A stretch of 25,679 bases of DNA from the IMG/VR virus record IMGVR_UViG_3300044825_002592, positions 1 to 25,679 of that record; one strand, given 5' to 3'. This document shows positions 7,332 to 19,374 of the stretch, in pieces. The notes beneath the pieces are model-generated. The model ran no database searches. It saw only the letters and a program-made list of their open reading frames with translations, and was not told the origin of the DNA. Made by a program: the position numbers and the translations under genes. The number at the start of each line of letters is the position of its first letter. Position 1 is the first letter of the stretch. The DNA comes from a virus.

Positions 7332-7571
7332 TCAAGCGCCGCGTAAACCGAGTTGGCGCATCATCTCTAACATGCTGCCGCCGTACGGAGCCAAACGCTC
7401 CTCCATTGGTTTCGCCCGCAGATCTCGTTGTCGATTTACCCAATCCCTAAATTGATCTTGATCCATCGGAAGATTGGGATCTTCACCGACGGGGATACCT
7501 TGGGAAACCTCAGCGGACGGCGCAGATCCACCCTTCAAAATAAATTCTTCAAGAAAAAGCGCAGGATCCAC
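7332..7571 (-). CDS. Small hypothetical protein, 79 aa
   Basis: GTG start at 7571; a few non-ATG codons extend the frame upstream to a TGA, so the start is uncertain. The N-terminal helix is DPALFLEEFILKGG. The middle is Pro-rich and acidic, and the C-terminal half is Gln/Arg/Met-rich and helical (QFRDWVNRQRDLRAKP, then MLEMMRQLGLRG). I recognise no family. Together with the next gene it forms a small leftward pair facing the glycosyltransferase gene. Confidence 0.55.
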   Translation of the reverse strand: MDPALFLEEFILKGGSAPSAEVSQGIPVGEDPNLPMDQDQFRDWVNRQRDLRAKPMEERLAPYGGSMLEMMRQLGLRGA

Positions 7572-7646
7572 GTCGCAGACACGCAGCGTTCAATCTATGT
7601 AGTCTATTCGACGATCTAAACAAAAGAAAGACTTTCACAACCGTCA

Positions 7647-7988
7647 TTAACTGTCTGCTGAACCCCGGAACCATTTACGTTTTTGACTAAACCACTCCGC
7701 CAAAGTCGTCGGATCCTGAGCACCTTGAAGCTGATCAGTAGGATCGGGTTCTCCTAAATCCATACTTTGCATAAAACCGTCCAAACTATCCGCCGGTTGC
7801 TCCCCGTTAATTGCAGTACGCCTCGCTTTACGCAATAAAGCTTCCACGGAGTGGTTGCAGTTCGCCCATTTCTGGATCCACTGCATGTCGCTGAGCTGAA
7901 CTTCCTGCCCTTTAGCGATCCGCTGGCAGATAAATTCAACTCGAAGACGCACATCCGTGGACAACATAAGCTTCGAGCCGTTAGGCAT
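7647..7988 (-). CDS. Hypothetical helical protein, 113 aa
   Basis: ATG at 7988. Mostly helical: VRLRVEFICQRIAKGQEVQL, then MQWIQKWANCNHSVEALLRK, then a Pro/Asp linker and a basic tail ending WFSQKRKWFRGSADS. No catalytic motif is seen. It is the first leftward gene after the large non-coding region, so the divergent control region for it lies within 7989-8060. Family unknown. Confidence 0.7.
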   Translation of the reverse strand: MPNGSKLMLSTDVRLRVEFICQRIAKGQEVQLSDMQWIQKWANCNHSVEALLRKARRTAINGEQPADSLDGFMQSMDLGEPDPTDQLQGAQDPTTLAEWFSQKRKWFRGSADS

Positions 7989-8048
7989 AGCCTAGACGCG
8001 ACCGCCTAAAGATGTATCAGACGGTGCCGACGCAGCGCGGGGGCGTGT

Positions 8049-8062
8049 TAATATGCTGATAC
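8049..8062 (+). promoter_or_regulatory. Promoter-like motif at the left edge of the structured non-coding region
   Basis: TAATATGCTGATAC fits TANTATGYTRA, almost identical to the sites at 2562 and 5714. No start codon follows at the usual 24 nt. It points into the gene-free region, as expected for a promoter of a non-coding transcript. Confidence 0.4.
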
Positions 8063-8368
8063 TCAAAACTTTTATCCCCATTTTGCCAGCAAAATTATCT
8101 TAGGCTTCTCGCCCACCCCGTCGAGGTAAGTCCCTATATAAAAAAAAGGCAAGATTGCGAGGAATTGTGTATAGCGAGCGCCGGCCTGGGTGATGAGTAG
8201 CGCCGCACTAAGTATCATTTAGTAATGTTAAGTTGTATATTTAACTTTGTGAACGTAGTTATAGTTCATCTGTACTGGGGTGGGGTCCTATCACCTTTCG
8301 TTTCAAACGCTTGACAGCTGCACCGCTGGCGTGGTAGTTGCGCGCGCGCCGCGCGTTTCGTCTTTTAA

Positions 8369-8496
8369 CTAGGTGCGGACCCTGGCATTGTGTGCCAATC
8401 AGTGAACCGGTTGAGAGGGGTTGACGGTTGCACCGGATCCGAGCGATGCTGTGCTCACTGGAGAGACGGGTTCGCCCCGGACGCCAGAGCACCTAG
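8369..8496 (+). other. Multibranch RNA domain within the non-coding region
   Basis: Outer helix of 8 perfect pairs: CTAGGTGC (8369-8376) with GCACCTAG (8489-8496). Inside are hairpins TGGCA/TGCCA (8383-8397), AACCG/CGGTT (8405-8429) and GTGCTC/GAGCAC (8451-8492), the last containing CGGG-TTCG-CCCG. The final arm shares bases 8489-8492 with the outer helix, and GGTGC can instead pair with GCACC at 8430-8434, so alternative folds exist. Confidence 0.5.
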
Positions 8497-8728
8497 ACAA
8501 CTCAGCCACGCCGCGCCCGATACAAGGGCCGGGATCACAGGGCAGCCGATGGTAGGGAGCACTTCCCCGAAACGTAGGTAGACGCTCAGAGATCCTAGCT
8601 TGAAACTGTGGGCATCGTGTGGCTGTGTTGCTAGGCAAGGAACCTAGACAATCTAACTAAGCGTAAGTGTAGTAGGAACACTGCGAGGCTAGTACGAAAC
8701 GTACTGCGTTTAGTTATACATAACTTCC

Positions 8729-8794
8729 CATAGAGTGTGGGCAATGCAGCCGAACTTAAGTAGGCCGCCAGGGAGAAGCACCCTACACTCTATG
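8729..8794 (+). other. Long stem-loop, 13 pairs, with a GGCCGCCAGGGAGA element in its loop
   Basis: CATAGAGTGTGGG (8729-8741) pairs with CCCTACACTCTATG (8781-8794) with a single bulged T. The 39-nt apical part contains GGCCGCCAGGGAGA (8763-8776), which recurs at 15322-15335 in the leader of the MoxR-VWA operon. Direct sequence observation; RNA function inferred. Confidence 0.65.
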
Positions 8795-9127
8795 TCAGCA
8801 GGTATCTTGTCTGTAACTAAGACAAACTATCGGCGCTAAATGTCAGCCACCCTCGCCGCGTGGCACCTGAATACAACCTAACTTGTCAGCGTACAGTTAG
8901 TTACAGCGTACAGATTCTCTTGTCTGGGGGTAGGTTGCATCTTATCCCCTTGCTTCATTCTCCCGAAACACACTAGTGCGTATCACTACGATGTCGGGCC
9001 GAGGTTAACGAGTGGGGTTTGAGCACTCTGTACGTTGTAACTAACTGTGTGCTAGGCATTATGTTTCAACTTTTCTGGGTGACCTGTTCTGTGTGGGTCG
9101 CCTGAATGTAACTAACTTGTCAGCGGG

Positions 9128-9158
9128 TAGGTTCAATTAAGGATCAACCTTGAACCTA
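9128..9158 (+). other. Hairpin near the right end of the non-coding region
   Basis: TAGGTTCAA and AGG on the left arm (with a 3-nt bulge) pair with CCTTGAACCTA on the right arm, giving 11-12 pairs around ATCAA. No T-run follows, so it is not an intrinsic terminator. Confidence 0.55.
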
Positions 9159-9203
9159 TTTGATCACGGACTAGATTCTCTCCTCAAGCTATACAGTTTG
9201 ATG

Positions 9204-9224
9204 AGGGATTCATCCCTCTTTGTT
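9204..9224 (+). terminator. Weak terminator-like hairpin before the first small gene
   Basis: GAGGGATTCATCCCTC (6 pairs with a TTCA loop) is followed by TTTGTTG. The T-tract is short, so termination would be partial. It could end the upstream non-coding transcript or shield the leader of the gene at 9239. Confidence 0.35.
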
Positions 9225-9238
9225 GTCAGCTGCCAGCC

Positions 9239-9574
9239 ATGTTGCTGGTGAATGTTATGAACATCAAGACCAACAATCAACCACGCCAGCCTATGTCTGG
9301 CCTGACCCTTGAGCTCTTTGTCGGCGACAAGCAAGCTGCCAAGATTCGACAGCAGTTTGACTACCTAACTGACACGGAGTTCGAAGATGAATCATTCATC
9401 ATGTACAAAGGTTATGTGTACGCAATGTCTGACTTTATGCGTATCGAACAGGATTCTACTGGTGATCTTGCACAGTCTGGCTGGCACGGTTACAGCTCAG
9501 ATTCATTCTTTAGCGGTGTGTTAATCAAAGTGTGTGATGACGGAGATGTCATCATGGGCCGCTTTTGTTCCTGA
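9239..9574 (+). CDS. Hypothetical acidic protein, about 105-111 aa
   Basis: Two in-frame ATGs (9239 and 9257); neither has a Shine-Dalgarno sequence, and the second gives a more typical N-terminus (MNIKTNNQPRQ). The protein is acidic, with aromatic-rich segments (FEDESFIMYKGYVYAMSDFM) and DGDVIMGRF near the end, suggesting a compact alpha/beta fold. First gene of the rightward train of small genes; a TGTAACTAAC repeat follows its stop. Function unknown. Confidence 0.7.
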   Translation: MLLVNVMNIKTNNQPRQPMSGLTLELFVGDKQAAKIRQQFDYLTDTEFEDESFIMYKGYVYAMSDFMRIEQDSTGDLAQSGWHGYSSDSFFSGVLIKVCDDGDVIMGRFCS

Positions 9575-16633: not shown

Positions 16634-17821
16634 ATGAACAACAAAACTTTCGTAAAGCTTCAAACGTTTCGCTCCTGGCTTAACGTAGCAAACCTTGAGC
16701 GAGAGGAGATCGTAGACGGACTTCTCGCCTCCCTGATCAGCCGTCAAAACGCATTCCTGCTCGGCGAACCAGGAACCGGTAAATCTGATCTAGTGCGATC
16801 CATCTGTAAAGGGATCTCAGGGGCCAACTACTTCGGGTATCTACTTACGCCCACGACAGATCCCTCGGAGGTCTTTGGCCCTGTGGCTGTAACCAAACTT
16901 CTGCAAGATGAGTACAGCCGAGATGTCGACGGATACTTGCCCTCGGCGCACATCGGATTTTTAGACGAGATGTTCCGCGGTAGTTCAGCAATCCTGAACT
17001 CGCTGTTGATGCTCCTTAACGAGAGAACATTCAACAACGGTAAGGAGTACATCCAAACACCGATCGAATCCATCGTCGCTGCCACGAACAGCTGGCCTGA
17101 GGAAGAGTCGCTACAGGCTTTTGCGGATCGTTTTCTGTTCCGCCCAACTGTGCTCCCTCTAAAGAAACCCAGCTCTAAACGGATTCTTGATCAGTGGGCG
17201 CTGGGAATCGAAAAGCGGCCCACCATTGGAGAGTATTTAACTCTCGAAGAGTTGAAAGAGCTACAGGAATCTGCTGAGAATATAAAAATCTCAGACGAGT
17301 TTCTAGATAAGTTTGGGTCTGTTTGGGATATGTTGCAGCAACGGTCAATCACCATCAGCGATCGTCGTCGGGTTCAGATTCTCAAGTTCCTGAAAGCGTG
17401 GGCAGTTGTGCAGGGAGACAGCGAACTATATCCCGAACACATGCACAACAGCATCACTCACATCGTGTACAGGACGGAAGAGGACAAGCTAACGATTAAA
17501 GAAACTCTCGACCAAGAGATCCCAACTGCGGACAACATCTTGGCCACGGCGAAACGAGCTGCGGCAGGCATTCTTTCGGAGTACACCGCAACAGCGCATC
17601 GCTTTAAGTCCAAAGGGCTGCAAGATCTAAATGAATATGTGATCTTTCTTCGGCGGTGTCACAAGGACATCGATACGATCAAAACTAAAGTATCTGAAGT
17701 TCTAGACGACGACAAGAAACGCATGGGCGCTAAAACCCGTACGGACGGGGTGAAGCTAATCCAGTCTTTGGAAACGCACAGCGCAACATTTGCTAAAGCC
17801 ATCAACGAATTCAGTAAGTAG
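16634..17821 (+). CDS. MoxR-family AAA+ ATPase, RavA-like
   Basis: Three hundred and ninety-five residues. Walker A is GEPGTGKS (44-51), Walker B IGFLDE (107-112), sensor 1 AATNS (149-153), and an arginine in ADRF (166) and SDRRR further on suit the finger and sensor 2. DPSEVFGPV and ILNSLLMLLNERTF are the RavA/MoxR signature around the pore and beta hairpin. MoxR ATPases work with VWA proteins in assembly or remodelling of other complexes. The VWA gene starts two bases after the stop. The C-terminal 150 residues are helical, as in the RavA triple-helix/LARA part, but not recognisably LARA. Confidence 0.92.
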   Translation: MNNKTFVKLQTFRSWLNVANLEREEIVDGLLASLISRQNAFLLGEPGTGKSDLVRSICKGISGANYFGYLLTPTTDPSEVFGPVAVTKLLQDEYSRDVDGYLPSAHIGFLDEMFRGSSAILNSLLMLLNERTFNNGKEYIQTPIESIVAATNSWPEEESLQAFADRFLFRPTVLPLKKPSSKRILDQWALGIEKRPTIGEYLTLEELKELQESAENIKISDEFLDKFGSVWDMLQQRSITISDRRRVQILKFLKAWAVVQGDSELYPEHMHNSITHIVYRTEEDKLTIKETLDQEIPTADNILATAKRAAAGILSEYTATAHRFKSKGLQDLNEYVIFLRRCHKDIDTIKTKVSEVLDDDKKRMGAKTRTDGVKLIQSLETHSATFAKAINEFSK

Positions 17822-17823
17822 CT

Positions 17824-19374
17824 ATGAACCTCAAAACCAACATCGAGTTCATTCGCCTAACTAACAACGAACCGCTGACTTTAGTTTGTTCTGCCTTGGC
17901 TGACTTCCTTTGGGAAGATTTCATCAGGGAGGCAAAGCCATCGGTTAAATACTTGACGGAAACCCACAACTTGAAGCAGCTCTCCAGATTCGGCAAAGAG
18001 CTATTCGAGAGGCTCTACAAAGCTGATGATGTCAACTGGCTCGTGTCACTGGAAGCCTACGAGGAGTACTTCCGAAAGGTGTGCGACGGCGACAAAGCTG
18101 CGCTTCCGGAAGGATACAAACCAGAAAACGGTTTCTGGTATTCCGTTATGGAAGACCTGTCAGCCGCAGCCGCTTGGCCGCAGATGCTCCAGCACTGCAG
18201 CGGAGAACAGTACAACAGCGCTAACAATGCCGTGGTAATTCTCAACAAACTATCGGACGTTATAGAAAATGCGATCGATCAAGGGATGGTAAACATTCAG
18301 CTGCTTGCCCACGCTGGGCAACGCCTTGAAGAACTCCGAAAGAATTTCCAGGAAGCACAAGACGCGGGAGATGTCGCTGCAGCAGCACAGTTCAGAAGAG
18401 AAGGTAAAGAACTAAACCAAGAGCTTAACGAAGCGATAGAGAACGCAAGGCAGACAATACAGAGTAAAGCAAATCAAATAATGGATGAAGCTCTAGCAGA
18501 GAGTAAAGAGAATAATGAAACTATTTCTACCCTGTGGGGTACCTCGGCGGGTGAGCGGCAACGGACTGAAAATATCGAAGAGAAGAAAGCCCTGGCTAGA
18601 AAGCTGCAAAACAATCCGAAGCTTAAACAAGTAGTTAAAAAGTTGGGAACACTTCAACGCGTTTGGTATGAGAGAAAAAGAGCTAAGTTATACAAGGCTA
18701 GTTATGAGTGTGTAACAGGAGCGGAATTTAGCAATAACGTAATCAAAGCTTTTCCATCGGAGTTGGCGTTGGCAGCCACGCCGCAGGGTAAAGCTCTGTT
18801 TGCGCTTAAGTATTCTCAGAAAACTTTAATGACAAAAGACTACACAGCGCACAGAAAAGATTTGGGAAAAGGTCCAATCATCATGTACATCGATGCCTCA
18901 GGCTCCATGAGCGGCGAGCTGGAGATTTGGAGTAAAGCGATAGCCATGGTCATAGCTGATCAAGCTCGAAAGGAAAACAGGAAAATATATGTGAATCTAT
19001 TTGACACGGCGGTAATGGAGCTTTTGGAGATCTGCGGAGACAACATGGTTAAGGCGGACCTGTTGGACGAGCTTTCGAGTTGGACGCTCGGTGGAGGAAC
19101 ATCCTTCAATGCCGTAATCAACCACATCGTTCACTTGGGATCTAAAGAGCCGAAAGCTGATGTGGTAATCTTGACCGACGGGCAAGCAGACGTTGGAGAT
19201 AACTTTGTGAGAGCACTGAATACTTATAAGACAAACACAGGAACGCAGGTGAGCACTGTATGTTTGAACATGGCGGTACCAGAAGTTTGCAACTTGTTTA
19301 GCGACGAAACATACAGCGTGAATATCTCTAATTCAGTCGATACAGTAGATGCAATTCAAAGATGTATTCGATAG
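17824..19374 (+). CDS. VWA-domain protein, ViaA/CobT-like partner of the MoxR ATPase
   Basis: Five hundred and sixteen residues. The N-terminal 340 residues are helical, with an Ala/Glu/Gln-rich coiled region (about 160-235). The VWA domain is C-terminal, as in ViaA: MIDAS D-x-S-x-S is Asp357-Ser359-Ser361 (MYIDASGSMSG), the Thr is in GGGTSF (about 426), and the Asp in LTDGQAD (452). All MIDAS residues are intact, so metal-dependent ligand binding is expected. It is translated right after the ATPase. In known pairs the VWA protein recruits the substrate for the ATPase; the substrate here is unknown. Confidence 0.92.
   Translation: MNLKTNIEFIRLTNNEPLTLVCSALADFLWEDFIREAKPSVKYLTETHNLKQLSRFGKELFERLYKADDVNWLVSLEAYEEYFRKVCDGDKAALPEGYKPENGFWYSVMEDLSAAAAWPQMLQHCSGEQYNSANNAVVILNKLSDVIENAIDQGMVNIQLLAHAGQRLEELRKNFQEAQDAGDVAAAAQFRREGKELNQELNEAIENARQTIQSKANQIMDEALAESKENNETISTLWGTSAGERQRTENIEEKKALARKLQNNPKLKQVVKKLGTLQRVWYERKRAKLYKASYECVTGAEFSNNVIKAFPSELALAATPQGKALFALKYSQKTLMTKDYTAHRKDLGKGPIIMYIDASGSMSGELEIWSKAIAMVIADQARKENRKIYVNLFDTAVMELLEICGDNMVKADLLDELSSWTLGGGTSFNAVINHIVHLGSKEPKADVVILTDGQADVGDNFVRALNTYKTNTGTQVSTVCLNMAVPEVCNLFSDETYSVNISNSVDTVDAIQRCIR

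Follow-up and report, generated by a model that had tools for sequence, protein, structure and literature searches.

A candidate new class of large, modular structured RNA in phages with probable picocyanobacterial hosts

Positions ~8064-9220 (plus strand) of a 25.7-kb IMG/VR virus record almost certainly specify a conserved large structured RNA and not a run of chance inverted repeats. The RNA would be ~1.15 kb long here and 0.95-1.8 kb in relatives, and it is probably both previously undescribed and the first of a new class of phage RNA. Taken as a whole, the locus is best explained, with reasonable likelihood, by a stand-alone, trans-acting, modular structured phage RNA. An earlier note on this DNA had proposed a candidate large structured RNA, and the proposal is now supported by covariation in independent domains, a conserved position and the absence of coding conservation. 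Neither of the two outcomes that the note had held against its own proposal, a lack of covariation and conserved coding potential, occurred.

A gene-free locus at a fixed position

Throughout, the window is the whole stretch analysed (25,679 nt). Among its open reading frames there is no credible gene between 7989 and 9256, and the stretch is flanked by two genes that lie outside the RNA:

7647-7988, minus strand: phrog_507 gene, which begins the leftward block
9257-9574, plus strand: small gene of the rightward block, of an uncharacterised family

The start codon of the downstream gene is probably 9257 and not 9239, because its homologues start there; the ATG at 9239 falls within the loop of a leader hairpin (CCAGC-GCTGG, 9231-9259) that is kept in many homologues. 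The longest open frames in the stretch are mostly of lengths that shuffled sequence also reaches, and relatives have stops in the window's frames, so that no frame is conserved as protein. On these two grounds protein coding was rejected, and the earlier description of the region as gene-free holds.

The RNA locus stands at the head of a rightward replication/early block of small genes, MoxR and VWA proteins and DNA polymerase, and the block to its left runs mostly leftward, divergent from it. Within the rightward block, at 16634-19371, a MoxR-type AAA ATPase (Pfam bpMoxR) adjoins a VWA-domain protein. Two tRNA genes lie 3 kb upstream of the locus in the window, and several homologues likewise have tRNA genes upstream of the RNA. 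The phrog_507 protein matched 460 phage records, all of them named Synechococcus, Prochlorococcus, Cyanophage or Marine; the hosts of this phage family are probably marine picocyanobacteria.

The first homologues were 15 contigs from a search with the downstream protein. By blastn, a homologous non-coding region precedes the gene in these contigs, with islands of high identity between unalignable stretches. The set was then enlarged by pattern scans using motifs of the 3' element, the middle domain and the 5' block, and at least 44 distinct IMG/VR sequences carry the homologous non-coding region at the same junction. All are metagenomic contigs, and all members come from one phage family. Wherever at least 1.4 kb is available downstream (33 sequences), the 5' block is followed on the same strand by the 3' domain, without exception and at a distance of 955-1,799 nt. 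The neighbours themselves vary: upstream lie phrog_507, a glycosyltransferase or other genes, and downstream several different small genes replace the window's neighbour in several homologues. A search of a phage collection found no similar DNA among deposited phages. S-CBS2, the nearest deposited phage by phrog_507, has no comparable gap of ~1 kb in its whole annotation, and the RNA model R1 matched nothing in it. Nor was a prophage copy found, a DNA polymerase scan of bacterial genomes returning distant relatives only.

A plus-strand fold with exchangeable modules

The inverted-repeat stems of the earlier note exist: a repeat search recovered its main stems (I1, 27 nt, 89%; I7, 13 nt, 92%; I15, 10 nt, 100%), and the main ones are conserved except that at 8369-8496. 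The 3' domain contains these helices:

8888-8914, plus strand: 5' arm of helix PA, the long-range helix of the 3' domain, pairing with 9027-9053
9027-9053, plus strand: 3' arm of helix PA, pairing with 8888-8914
8962-8998, plus strand: hairpin H2, with outer pairing 8962-8966/8994-8998, inner pairing 8974-8978/8984-8988 and the invariant internal loop CAC / CGATG

Helix PA, the longest inverted repeat of the stretch (27 nt, 89%, spanning 112 nt), shows double changes in 11 of 24 pairs, and H2 shows them in all ten. When all column pairs of the 3' domain were ranked by an unsupervised APC-corrected G-test, the top four were stacked pairs of H2 (8975-8977 with 8985-8987 in the window, then 8969-8996), each of them showing as many as four Watson-Crick types. 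In the window, unlike in its relatives, the H1 hairpin is rearranged (8887-8949), a duplicated CAGCGTACAG / CTTGTCAGCGGGTAGG segment standing in its place (8880-8950).

Covariation was counted over 46 proposed pairs in a 24-sequence alignment of 8882-9060 of the window and its relatives. Double-change cells number 155 versus 59.6 in shuffled and 19-51 in slid alignments, the controls being shuffles and slides and not a tree-based null; the covariation score on the same alignment is 0.349 versus 0.149 shuffled and 0.06-0.11 slid, phylogeny being handled by the slides only. A covariance model built from this alignment scores good members at 77-160 bits in the sense direction and no higher than 40 in the antisense direction, a difference that is partly a sequence effect. 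Furthermore, at well-paired helix positions G-U outnumbers A-C by 33 to 16 (p 0.02, uncorrected for phylogeny). Folding energy, compared with dinucleotide shuffles of the plus strand, is low at 8851-9150 (z -4.5) and 9151-9450 (z -3.8) and ordinary in the rest of the region. Since only 8851-9450 stands out, energy alone is insufficient and was rejected as proof of a structured RNA by itself; comparative evidence is needed.

Such evidence comes also from upstream of the 3' domain, where five further elements were delimited:

8490-8637, plus strand: middle domain A, containing GATGGTAGGGAGCACTTCCCCGAA, with nhmmer matches in most homologues
8654-8716, plus strand: exchangeable module B, closed by UAACUAAGCG (8654-8663) with CGUUUAGUUA (8707-8716)
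8729-8794, plus strand: exchangeable module C, a 13-nt stem (8729-8741/8782-8794) around the core GCAATGCAGCCGAA...GTAGGCC
8807-8825, plus strand: hairpin whose conserved loop UGUAACUAA (8812-8820) is complementary to 8897-8905, present in 13 of 26 full-length RNAs
8846-8864, plus strand: hairpin GCCAC (8846-8850) / GUGGC (8860-8864) with a conserved CUCGYC loop

Domain A is closed by 8490-8496 with 8631-8637, a helix that alternates among CACCUAG/CUAGGUG, AACCUAG/CUAGGUU and AACCUUG/CAAGGUU and forms only 5 bp in the window itself. This is the conserved partnership of 8490-8496, and the nested pairing of 8369-8376 with 8489-8496 that had been proposed for it is not conserved. By contrast, the 13-pair stem at 8729-8794, also put forward in the earlier note, is strongly supported, its arms being replaced yet complementary in distant relatives. 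In L007, L020, L021, L084 and L093 the arms of module C are entirely different and still pair (window CATAGAGTGT/ACACTCTATG; L020 CAAACAGTG/CACTGTTTG; L084 CAAGTAG/CTACTTG; L007 TTCATGCAG/CTGCATGAA) around an invariant core, which across relatives reads ATGYAGCCGAA..TAGGCC. The stem of the 8846-8864 hairpin likewise occurs in the alignment as GCCAC/GUGGC, GCAAC/GUUGC, ACAAC/GUUGU and AUCAC/GUGAU. Together, the covariation of H2 and PA, the strand scores, the G-U excess and the helices of domain A and module C establish, by sequence comparison, a plus-strand RNA fold.

Module B occurs in a subset of homologues, and in several others different modules take its place. More generally, modules of ~50-140 nt are common to otherwise divergent members at 81-100% identity while the adjoining parts differ; examples are module D (L005, L009, L010), module G (L008, L012, L038) and module I (L013, L055, L066, L090). 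Thus the RNA has a constant frame with exchangeable middle parts. The constant scaffold would comprise the 3' domain (PA and the hairpins H1 and H2), middle domain A and the fixed 5' block, with interchangeable helical modules attached to it. As a separate observation, L005 carries at 7370-7735 (minus strand) an HNH-endonuclease-like frame (VDHKIPL...NLQLL) inserted within the RNA's variable middle.

Two short complementary motifs recur throughout the 26 full-length RNAs. UAACUAA is found 52 times versus 1.9 expected (~27-fold) and UUAGUUA 35 times versus 2.7 expected (~13-fold). The two pair with one another within helix PA and module B, and the loop 8812-8820 offers the same sequence, so that alternative, tertiary or intermolecular pairing is possible. 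A contact between this loop and 8897-8905 had been suggested before; the complementarity is real, and because the long helix with the best support joins 8896-8906 to 9036-9046, the contact would be an alternative partner or a tertiary one.

Ends of the RNA

The elements at the two ends, all on the plus strand, are as follows:

8046-8061, plus strand: promoter-like block TGTTAATATGCTGATA (consensus TGTYANTATANTGAYA), kept in a 41-sequence alignment of the 5' block
8052-8057, plus strand: -10-like TATGCT inside the promoter-like block
8064-8160, plus strand: conserved 5' block, in 44 distinct sequences with one copy per locus, laid out as TTTTAYCCCC..TTCTCGCC (8106-8113)..ATATAAAAAAAAGG (8136-8149)..TTGCG
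9142-9165, plus strand: phased repeats GATC-GAAC-GATC with exact 10-nt spacing, just before the terminal hairpin
9174-9218, plus strand: terminal element GATTCTCTCC-hairpin-TGAGGGATTC-nn-CCCTC, conserved at the RNA 3' end

The TGTYANTATANTGAYA block and the 5' block rank among the best-conserved sequences of the locus. The promoter-like motif noticed earlier near 8049 does lie inside the conserved TGTYANTATANTGAYA block, although a plain sigma-70 promoter scan gives no match there; because that scan misses the block, its promoter function can only be surmised. The RNA would start at ~8064 and probably has a promoter of its own, where the rightward early/replication block begins. A covarying helix was sought in the 5' block with the 41-sequence alignment and no convincing one was found, so that the block may act as DNA, RNA or both, whether as promoter, DNA site or unpaired RNA.

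Near the other end, 31 of 33 homologues have 10-nt-phased GATC pairs at the corresponding position, and 25 of 33 have triples, which the loci examined show nowhere else. The phasing resembles a helically phased DNA operator. The hairpin that had been described near 9204 is conserved, at 9203-9218, and belongs to the terminal element, whose GAGGG has two conserved and mutually exclusive partners, an upstream UCUCUC or a downstream CCCUC. The element recurs, in many cases with its first base at the stop codon of the gene before it, in L021, L030, L042, L060, L062, L074, L077, L086 and ~60 other loci of varied viral contigs, T7-like cyanophages included (for example at NC_020835.1 34695-34736). 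It is also present without the RNA in other viral contigs and in the Prochlorococcus phages P-SSP6, P-SSP10 and 9515-10a. It is therefore a shared intergenic element of cyanophages, and probably a processing or mRNA-boundary signal. In the present RNA it would set the 3' end as a processing site or weak terminator. In several relatives the terminal hairpin and downstream-gene leader (9195-9262 in the window) are duplicated ~1 kb further on; counterparts lie at L012 9196-9259, L004 1644-1707, L011 3886-3949 and L013 8890-8946.

Mode of action and relation to known RNAs

What might such an RNA do? Since the gene after it changes among members, the RNA most likely acts in trans, and I regard this as a likely property even apart from the rest of the reading. 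It may have a role in host takeover. In the foremost rival reading it is a structured 5' leader of great length through which the early operon behind it is regulated in cis, as a riboregulator, an attenuator or a large-scale antiterminator of the HK022 put kind, with the terminal hairpin switching between its two GAGGG pairings. The fact that all members belong to one phage family leaves room for the leader of a conserved operon; the rightward gene block follows the RNA directly, the terminal element has its two exclusive conserved pairings, and UUAGUUA has several alternative UAACUAA partners. However, members do not share the same first downstream gene, a length of 1-1.8 kb with module swapping far exceeds known leaders, and the terminal hairpin element exists without the RNA in other cyanophages. 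HK022 put is itself some tens of bases long and binds RNA polymerase in cis. It resembles the present RNA as a structured RNA heading an early phage operon, but the size, modularity and changing downstream genes seen here do not fit it. Thus, I consider a cis-acting leader unlikely.

It is much less probable still that the conserved feature is a DNA-level element (a replication origin, packaging site or divergent promoter region) whose repeats are cruciforms or protein sites. The location between divergent gene blocks, the operator-like phased GATC repeats, the 5' block conserved without covariation and the palindromic CACTAGTG within H2 of the window would all suit such an element, but an RNA is favoured by a covarying helix 27 bp long that spans 112 nt, by internal loops of conserved sequence, by G-U outnumbering A-C and by the swapping of modules with helix closure kept.

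Could the RNA instead be a divergent member of a known family? GOLLD forms a 14-mer RNA nanocage and ROOL an 8-mer RNA nanocage. The two are large RNAs of phages, often encoded close to tRNA islands, and assemble into multimeric cages (PMC12286853). GOLLD is large (many examples >800 nt), encoded by phages or prophages, often near tRNAs, built of a constant and a variable part, and has kissing-loop contacts (PMC12286853). Its layout is another one, however: GOLLD keeps its 3' region and varies its 5' region, and the RNA described here keeps both ends and exchanges its middle. ROOL is likewise large, phage-borne, elaborate, near tRNAs and lacking a known protein partner (PMC12286853), but its model has 574 positions versus the 950-1800 nt found here. 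HEARO, OLE and raiA are similar in size class and fold complexity, but Rfam gave no match and no adjoining protein gene is kept in all members.

The searches speak against membership in any such family. None of 4227 Rfam families matched in the scanned stretches of the window and 15 homologous records. The best match of the GOLLD (RF02032) covariance model in these 16 records was 4.1 bits (cut-off 150) and lay elsewhere in a genome; the ROOL (RF03087) model stayed below its cut-off in the window and the 15 records, in a dedicated search run without a positive control with which cmscan agrees. A divergent GOLLD, ROOL or other Rfam RNA thus seems highly improbable in spite of the shared size class, phage host, elaborate fold, kissing-loop-like motifs and tRNA genes within about 2-5 kb. 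The choice that the earlier note had left between GOLLD or ROOL and something new is answered to this extent, that no Rfam model matched at the thresholds used, and a literature search found no publication on such an RNA among the papers searched. By setting and size GOLLD and ROOL are the nearest analogues, and judged by these models the RNA is a member of neither. It does show the general traits of a large structured phage non-coding RNA, namely conserved structure with compensatory changes and no conserved coding frame. Finally, a non-functional, repeat-rich intergenic remnant, which the ordinary energy z-scores of most of the region might suggest, is refuted by conserved blocks and compensatory changes in >40 sequences and can be given almost no credence.

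Returning to the stand-alone, trans-acting RNA, UAACUAA and UUAGUUA might make long-range, alternative or possibly intermolecular contacts, comparable to the kissing loops of GOLLD and ROOL. These motifs are the only hint, and a weak one, of a GOLLD/ROOL-like assembly, and a particle of that kind is a doubtful prospect. With similar reserve, I suggest that the fixed frame might carry exchangeable, recombining domains, each perhaps directed against a different host or defence target, and assemble through UAACUAA/UUAGUUA loops. If true, such an RNA would parallel modular tail fibres or anti-defence islands at the level of RNA. Very few RNAs of >500 nt with elaborate folds are known from bacteria and phages, and two of these form RNA-only cages. 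The present RNA adds a probable new class in viruses of the abundant picocyanobacteria, with >40 sequences available for covariation and cryo-EM, and its unusual trait, the swapping of domains inside one RNA under a fixed frame, would make its function testable by module exchange.
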